A stretch of DNA of 55,972 nt from Myxococcales bacterium. GTDB taxonomy: Bacteria > Myxococcota_A > Polyangia > GCA-2747355. How positions within the stretch are numbered: position 1 is the first letter of the stretch; the number at the start of each line of letters is the position of its first letter. Location of the stretch: the NCBI GenBank assembly GCA_020431405.1, contig JAGQIK010000002.1:1-55972 (forward strand). The letters run 5' to 3'. The translations under genes and the position numbers were made by a program. Shown in pieces: positions 41,123 to 42,916 of the stretch. The notes under the pieces were generated by a model. It worked only from the letters and a program-made list of their open reading frames with translations, did not search any database and had not been told where the DNA came from.

Positions 41123-42916
41123 ATGCCAGACGACGCCGAAAGCAAAAAGAAGGCGAAGGCCCCGGCCAAGAAGGCCCCGGCCAAGAAGGCTTCGACAAAG
41201 AAGTCGAAGGCCCCGGCCAAGAAGGCTTCGACAAAGAAGTCGAAGGCCCCGGACGCCGTCCCGGACGCCGTCGCGGCCGAGCCGGATGTCGAGGTCGTGG
41301 CGGCCGAAGTACCCGCCAAGGCCAAGGCCAAGGCCGCGGCTGGGGCGGCGCTTCCCGAGCGCGGGCCTACCGACGCCGAGCTCGCCGAGCTCGAAGCCGA
41401 GCTCGATGAAGCCGAAGAAGACGGCGACGACGAAGACGACGACGAGGGCCGCTACGAGCCCGAGGTCGGCGTCGAGCACAGCATCGAGTCGGCGCGCAGC
41501 GGGCGCGCGCGCTGTCGCGCCTGCAAAAAGAAGATCGAAAGGGGCGAGCTCAGGCTGCGCGAGGTCTTCGGCAGCCAGTACAGCCAGGACGTGATCTCGC
41601 GCTTCTACCACCTCGGCTGCGGCGCTGACCGCAAGCCGATCGTCTTGCGCCAGGCGCTCGACCGCTACACCGGGCCGCTCGATCGGCGTGACGAGCTCGA
41701 GGCGCGCATCGAGGCGGCGCTCAAGGTGCGTGACCTGGCGCAGGCGACGCCGACGACGAGCACGCAGTACCTCGAGTTTCGCGACAGCATGGCCAAGGGC
41801 GAGGACGAGCAGGCGCGGCTGGTGTTCGCCGACTGGCTGCAGTCGGTGGGCGATCCGCGCGGCGAGCTGATCGCCGCGCAGACGCAGAAGGAGCAGGCCG
41901 ACGACCCCAAGGCGCGCGCTGCCGCTGAAAAGCACGAGCGCGAGCTGATGCGCGACAACAGCGAGCAGTTCGTGCCGAAGCCGTTTCCCGGGCGGGCGAT
42001 TTGGCAGCGCGGCTTCATCGAGCGGCTCGAGATCGACTCGCGCAGCGACGTGATCAAAGACGTGCTCGCTTCGCTGTTCACGCACCCGTCGCTGTTGCTC
42101 TTGCGCGAGCTGTCGGTGCGGCTCGAGGCGCTCGACCGGCTGCTGGTCGGTGCCAACCTGCCCGAGATGCCCGACACGCTGCACGTGCTCGAGCTCGGCG
42201 TGAGCAAGCCGCCGCAGCACTACGAGGAGCGGGTCACGCAGCAGCTCGGTCGCGTGAGCGCGCTGGTCAAGAGCGCGGCGAACTTGCGGCGGCTGTGGCT
42301 CGAGGGTGTCGCCGATATCGAAGCGCTCTCGCATCCGACGCTCGCCGAGCTCGAGCTGGTGGTGGTCGATCCGAGCGCCGAGGAGGCGTGCGAGCCGGGC
42401 GCCCCGGCGCTGTCTCTGCTCTCGCGGCTGGCCAAGCTCTCGCGCGAAGCGCTGCCCTCGCTGGTCTCGCTGGCGATCCACGTCGAGAAGGACCTGCAGG
42501 CGGTGTGCGGTGCGCTGGCGACGAGCGCGATCTTTGGCGGGTTGCGTCGGCTGCGCCTGCAGGGCGAGCTAACCATCGCGGCCGGCGAGGCGCTGGTCAG
42601 CGCGCGCGCCGGGCTCGACAAGCTCGAGACGCTCGATGTCAGCGAGTGCCGCGTGGAGTATCAGGCGCGCGCGCCGCTGGCGTCGATCTGCGAGCAGCTG
42701 CTGGCGCCGCCCGATCCGGTGGCGGCCGCCATCGGCCCCGACGAAGAGGAGCCGAGCAAGGCGCCGCAAGGCGACTGGCTGGTGCGCAACACGCGCAAGC
42801 CCGAGTGGGGCGTCGGTCGCGTGATCGACGAGCGCGATGACGGCGGGCTCGAGGTCGAGTTCGAAAACGCGGGGCTGAAGATCATCCGCGCCGTCGAGCT
42901 GCTCGAGGACGCCTAG
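41123..42916 (+). CDS. PARP-type zinc-finger protein with histone H1-like tail, TIGR02996-like and LRR-like regions
   Basis: 597 aa, probably nucleoid-associated. Residues 8-42 are a Lys/Ala/Pro tail resembling histone H1 (KKAPAKKASTKKSKAPAKK), followed by an acidic stretch (90-110). Residues about 121-170 match the PARP-type zinc finger: SARSGRARCRACKKKIERGE with Cys131, Cys134, then His163 and Cys166 in FYHLGC (CCHC); in eukaryotes this binds DNA breaks. Residues about 213-252 (DEQARLVFADWLQSVGDPRGE) match the TIGR02996 repeat-companion domain. About 310-540 has leucine-rich-repeat-like LRRLWLEG/LRRLRLQG units. The C-terminus (PEWGVGRVIDERDDGGLEVEFENAG) resembles DUF3553. No PARP catalytic domain is present. 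This combination is unusual. Confidence 0.8.
   Translation: MPDDAESKKKAKAPAKKAPAKKASTKKSKAPAKKASTKKSKAPDAVPDAVAAEPDVEVVAAEVPAKAKAKAAAGAALPERGPTDAELAELEAELDEAEEDGDDEDDDEGRYEPEVGVEHSIESARSGRARCRACKKKIERGELRLREVFGSQYSQDVISRFYHLGCGADRKPIVLRQALDRYTGPLDRRDELEARIEAALKVRDLAQATPTTSTQYLEFRDSMAKGEDEQARLVFADWLQSVGDPRGELIAAQTQKEQADDPKARAAAEKHERELMRDNSEQFVPKPFPGRAIWQRGFIERLEIDSRSDVIKDVLASLFTHPSLLLLRELSVRLEALDRLLVGANLPEMPDTLHVLELGVSKPPQHYEERVTQQLGRVSALVKSAANLRRLWLEGVADIEALSHPTLAELELVVVDPSAEEACEPGAPALSLLSRLAKLSREALPSLVSLAIHVEKDLQAVCGALATSAIFGGLRRLRLQGELTIAAGEALVSARAGLDKLETLDVSECRVEYQARAPLASICEQLLAPPDPVAAAIGPDEEEPSKAPQGDWLVRNTRKPEWGVGRVIDERDDGGLEVEFENAGLKIIRAVELLEDA
41174..41245 (+). repeat. Two tandem 36-bp copies in the Lys-rich tail
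   Basis: A 36-base unit, starting GGCCCCGGCCAAGAAGGC, occurs twice head to tail (41174-41209, 41210-41245). It encodes the KAPAKKASTKKS repeat and stays in frame, so the tail length may vary between strains. Confidence 0.85.

Follow-up and report, generated by a model that had tools for sequence, protein, structure and literature searches.

A PARP-type zinc finger joined to TIGR02996, leucine-rich repeat-like and Tudor-like DUF3553 parts in a protein encoded by a Myxococcales bacterium

The window analysed here, a stretch of 55,972 nucleotides from a Myxococcales bacterium, contains an open reading frame at 41123..42916 (+) that begins with ATG and encodes a protein of 597 amino acids. Its GC3 of 0.91 is comparable to that of the other genes of the window. 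From the N-terminus onward, the protein consists of a lysine-rich tail, an acidic stretch, a PARP-type zinc finger, a TIGR02996 domain, a leucine-rich repeat (LRR)-like region, and a DUF3553 domain, all described below with coordinates on the same strand. The adjoining genes encode an efflux pump and a P-type ATPase, none is a repair gene, and these neighbors are uninformative on the function of the protein.

The first 42 residues (41123..41248, +) form a low-complexity tail of lysine, alanine, and proline with a net charge of +13 and a lysine content of 38%. A perfect 36-bp tandem repeat in 2.3 copies (window positions 41170-41252) encodes the lysine-rich tail, which therefore resembles a recent expansion and not a conserved H1-like function. 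Residues 80-110 (41360..41452, +) are acidic by composition, with a net charge of -15. A preliminary description of this DNA had likened the tail to histone H1 and considered the product a possible chromatin or DNA-damage protein. The lysine-rich stretch is real, but it is N-terminal low complexity and not a histone H1 domain, and the Pfam scan returned no linker-histone match to the protein.

Fingers of the PARP1 type, which sense DNA breaks, are best known in eukaryotic enzymes. Residues 122-194 (41486..41704, +) match the zf-PARP family, PF00645, with 41.3 bits and an E-value of 2.7e-10, above the Pfam cut-off of 39.3, and the zinc ligands are C131, C134, H163, and C166, in the arrangement C-x2-C ... 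H-x2-C. Both the family and the exact positions of the four ligands had been given in the preliminary description, which named this profile as a check on its claim, and both hold. The closest PDB sequences are PARP1 chains, with the second finger (Zn2) scoring higher than the first (Zn1) and DNA ligase III matching more weakly. Residue R128 aligns with Arg18 and Arg122 of PARP1, which insert into the minor groove in Zn1 and Zn2, respectively (PMC4678113). The terminal bases are contacted in PARP1 by Phe44 and Val48 of Zn1 and by Leu151 and Ile154 of Zn2 (PMC4678113); I158, the hydrophobic residue five positions before the histidine, aligns with Val48/Ile154, and the second base-stacking residue, Phe44/Leu151, lacks an exact counterpart. 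The ligands and the minor-groove arginine are present in 36 of 38 loci found with the profile, a count that includes overlapping loci. A single-sequence AF2 model of the isolated finger reached a pLDDT of only 50 and was not used.

The finger had also been described as lacking the PARP catalytic domain, which is borne out: the Pfam scan gave no match of the protein to the ADP-ribosyltransferase catalytic domain, PF00644. A profile search found PF00644 nowhere in the genome, a result to be read alongside the control genomes, which likewise gave no match. In one survey, bacterial PARPs are described as consisting mostly of a WGR domain and a catalytic domain (PMC4245714). WGR was considered as a companion module of the finger and rejected, as none of its 10 places in the genome shares a frame with a zf-PARP or TIGR02996 match.

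The middle of the protein comprises a TIGR02996 repeat-companion domain at residues 227-255 (41801..41887, +; 33.3 bits, NCBIfam cut-off 29.05) and an LRR-like region at residues 300-530 (42020..42712, +). The LRR-like assignment, proposed earlier from the letters alone, is supported by an excess of the motif L-x2-L-x-[LVI], which occurs 8 times in residues 300-530 compared with 2.7 times in shuffled sequences (p = 0.004); the LxxLxL motifs span residues ∼327-507. Residues 439-507 additionally show a weak match to the STM4015 family (E = 2.8e-4), at 20 bits far below the family cut-off of 275.

The C-terminal residues 553-590 (42779..42892, +) match DUF3553 (PF12073) with 25.4 bits, above the Pfam cut-off of 20.3, and this Tudor-like domain is related to the RNA polymerase interaction domain of the helicases PcrA and UvrD. 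A two-sequence profile of the domain, compared with 177,635 PDB sequences at E<=10, matched only the C-terminal tails of UvrD (7egt) and PcrA (5dma), both weakly, with E-values of about 0.5. In related genomes, PF12073 and PF21196 (PcrA_UvrD_tudor) both fall on one stretch at the C-terminal end of UvrD helicases. For the window domain itself, PF21196 gives 14.5 bits, under its cut-off of 23.9, yet this is the third-best place for the profile in the genome, the best being a 799-aa frame of UvrD size. A single-sequence AF2 model of the domain shows four strands at a pLDDT of 72, and fold searches with this model returned weak matches, mostly to Tudor or Tudor-like domains (best Foldseek E-value 0.42, best VIA Z-score 5.7); PcrA (5DMA) is absent among the matches listed, an absence that carries no weight. 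The DUF3553 domain of the polymerase DinX was likewise described as Tudor-like and closest to the RNA polymerase-binding tail of PcrA/UvrD (PMC6511836). Work on RNA polymerase binding by PcrA mutated W684, K712, and L714, and H681 is also counted among the interface residues (PMC5397179). Residues H681, W684, K712, and L714 correspond to K559, W562, K586, and I588 of the window protein, with two identical, one conservative, and one different; the last two pairs are putative, having been mapped by eye. Judged by this sequence kinship with the polymerase-binding Tudor domain of PcrA/UvrD, DUF3553 is the most informative part of the protein, a meaning that the preliminary description missed.

A relative of the protein, L042, is encoded in a genome from the same taxonomic family and is 43% identical over 439 amino acids. 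It retains all four zinc ligands, the minor-groove arginine, the TIGR02996 domain (44 bits), and the LxxLxL motifs. Neither outcome that the preliminary description named as refuting it, a poor PF00645 match or loss of the ligands in orthologues, was thus observed. The finger core of the relative is nearly identical to that of the window protein (LRLREVFGSQYS), the finger being one of the segments best conserved in the pair, and the finger of the relative scores 34.2 bits on PF00645 (E = 4.4e-8), under the cut-off of 39.3. The lysine tail is missing from the relative, and only a short acidic run is found in place of the acidic stretch. An in-frame TGA lies at L042:1559-1561, after GDWLV and just upstream of a DUF3553-like domain that is 61% identical to that of the window protein and into which the frame continues; this codon may be a sequencing error or a real truncation. 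The complete architecture was seen in these two genomes only. Every part of it belongs to a known family, and the unusual combination noted earlier stands, with zf-PARP, TIGR02996, LRR-like, and DUF3553 parts in one frame and both TIGR02996 and DUF3553 above their curated cut-offs. The combination was not found described in the literature searched, which covered few subscription journals, and neither was any account of bacterial zf-PARP/TIGR02996 proteins.

The genome of the window encodes four zf-PARP genes, three of which also encode TIGR02996, in one case just below the cut-off, and two of these three additionally encode DUF4132. The latter two, L035:1642-4995 (C168 of this genome) and L036:4200-6479 (C217 of this genome), combine TIGR02996 and DUF4132 with a C-terminal finger. 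DUF4132 is also found in a Deinococcus gene upregulated on depletion of the DNA-damage repressor DdrO (PMC8533742). An association between TIGR02996 and zf-PARP (hypergeometric, ∼5e-7) was dropped as evidence because the calculation used a guessed number of genes and took no account of the close paralogy between two of the three. L037:6166-6726 (C495 of this genome) encodes a small protein that is hardly more than two PARP-type fingers, comparable to an isolated PARP1 Zn1-Zn2 pair, and adjoins a frame that by eye resembles a PhoH/PIN ATPase. Of the 377 genomes sampled across the phylum, 30 encode PARP-type fingers, most often as part of small two-finger proteins. Other arrangements include a frame of 937 amino acids in which two C-terminal fingers accompany ankyrin repeats (L088:4348-7158) and two long proteins, L086:4511-7732 and L043:365-3289, with one or two N-terminal fingers followed by ∼900 residues that have no other Pfam match; these two appear alike at their C-termini by eye. 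In a tree of the fingers, that of the window protein clusters with the first fingers of two-finger proteins and those of the DUF4132 proteins cluster with the second, a split of moderate support (0.62-0.94).

The presence of a PARP-type finger and a polymerase-binding-like domain in one protein suggests, as far as sequence can tell, that the sensing of breaks may be linked to transcription in bacteria. Our tentative reading, which we place somewhat short of an even chance, is that the protein is a non-enzymatic DNA-break adaptor. The finger would recognize base pairs exposed at nicks or ends, with R128 inserted into the minor groove like Arg18 and Arg122 of PARP1, and the TIGR02996/LRR-like middle would bind a partner protein. 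The Tudor-like tail would dock on RNA polymerase as the tail of PcrA/UvrD does, thereby coupling break recognition to transcription. This reading is built on the domains and the zinc ligands, both of which a relative conserves, and on the kinship of DUF3553 with Tudor domains; from these we infer binding to DNA, binding to the polymerase, and the coupling of both, and a role in DNA damage is plausible. Several observations count against it. One of the four interface residues differs, with K559 at the position of PcrA H681, the Phe44/Leu151 stacking residue has no exact match, and the relative carries an in-frame TGA. No repair genes are adjacent, and the full architecture was seen in just two genomes. 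Tudor folds are also not specific to RNA polymerase and bind many other ligands. A more specific version, in which the protein is a dedicated transcription-coupled break sensor, with the finger locating nicks in transcribed DNA, the PcrA-type tail holding RNA polymerase, and the LRR-like part recruiting an effector, all without ADP-ribosylation, is unlikely.

The main rival of the adaptor reading, possible and clearly below an even chance, has the finger as one interchangeable recognition module among several within a large family of TIGR02996/repeat proteins specific to the lineage. Such a finger may bind DNA, but the proteins would act outside repair, for example in regulation or in telling self from non-self, with some other partner bound by the Tudor-like tail. 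This explanation stays viable because of the 42 TIGR02996 matches in the genome and the fusions to DUF4132 and ankyrin repeats; TIGR02996 accompanies three of the four zf-PARP genes, and in other genomes fingers are found next to ankyrin repeats or in long proteins that otherwise lack Pfam matches. However, the finger conserves features linked to nick binding, the Tudor-like domain belongs to the PcrA/UvrD type and is not a generic one, and searches of defense and phage libraries gave zero matches to the window protein.

It is improbable that the finger has given up DNA binding for a role as a zinc module that contacts proteins or RNA. Of the two base-stacking residues, one is off its PARP1 position, and the isolated finger yielded no usable predicted structure, both in keeping with such a change, but all ligands, the minor-groove arginine, and the hydrophobic residue five positions ahead of the histidine are retained, in a stretch that is among the most conserved between the window protein and its relative. 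Very improbable is a nucleoid or chromatin-like protein in which the lysine-rich tail would coat DNA like histone H1 and the finger would add affinity, as only the lysine content of residues 1-42 speaks for it, and it is left unsupported because the tail is missing from the relative and encoded by a perfect tandem repeat, with the acidic stretch that follows and the lack of a linker-histone match also against it.

A PARP1-type finger is used here without PARP, joined to the kind of domain by which PcrA/UvrD engage RNA polymerase. If the adaptor reading is true, it would add a further bacterial design for transcription-coupled break detection, and the phylum's many small two-finger proteins would allow an origin of the finger outside PARP to be tested. 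Were the transcription-coupled sensor true, it would be one among several uses of PARP1-type fingers in PARP-less bacteria.

Compared with known systems, the window protein shares with the fingers of PARP1 (Zn1/Zn2) and of DNA ligase III the CCHC ligands, the arginine of the SGR..C motif, and a valine or isoleucine in the base-stacking loop. Unlike those enzymes, it has a single finger, fused to TIGR02996/LRR-like and DUF3553 parts, and no WGR, BRCT, or catalytic domain. The small two-finger proteins of the phylum contain a homologous finger, and it is with their first that the window finger groups; they consist of scarcely more than a pair of fingers, as in PARP1 Zn1-Zn2 taken alone, whereas the window protein is multidomain with one finger. 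As in TIGR02996/STM4015-like repeat proteins, TIGR02996 scores above its cut-off and is followed by LxxLxL repeats, but here a PARP-type finger lies ahead and a Tudor-like tail behind, and the STM4015 score, 20 bits, stays far under the 275 bits set for that family. The domain differs from the PcrA/UvrD Tudor in its sub-cut-off PF21196 score and in the lysine at PcrA H681, and the protein differs from PcrA/UvrD and DinX in having no attached helicase or polymerase. The DUF3553 domain shares the motif WG.G.V ... V.FE..G.K with the PcrA/UvrD Tudor (PF21196) and the DUF3553 of DinX, and the sole PDB matches of its profile, weak as they are, fall on the tails of UvrD and PcrA.
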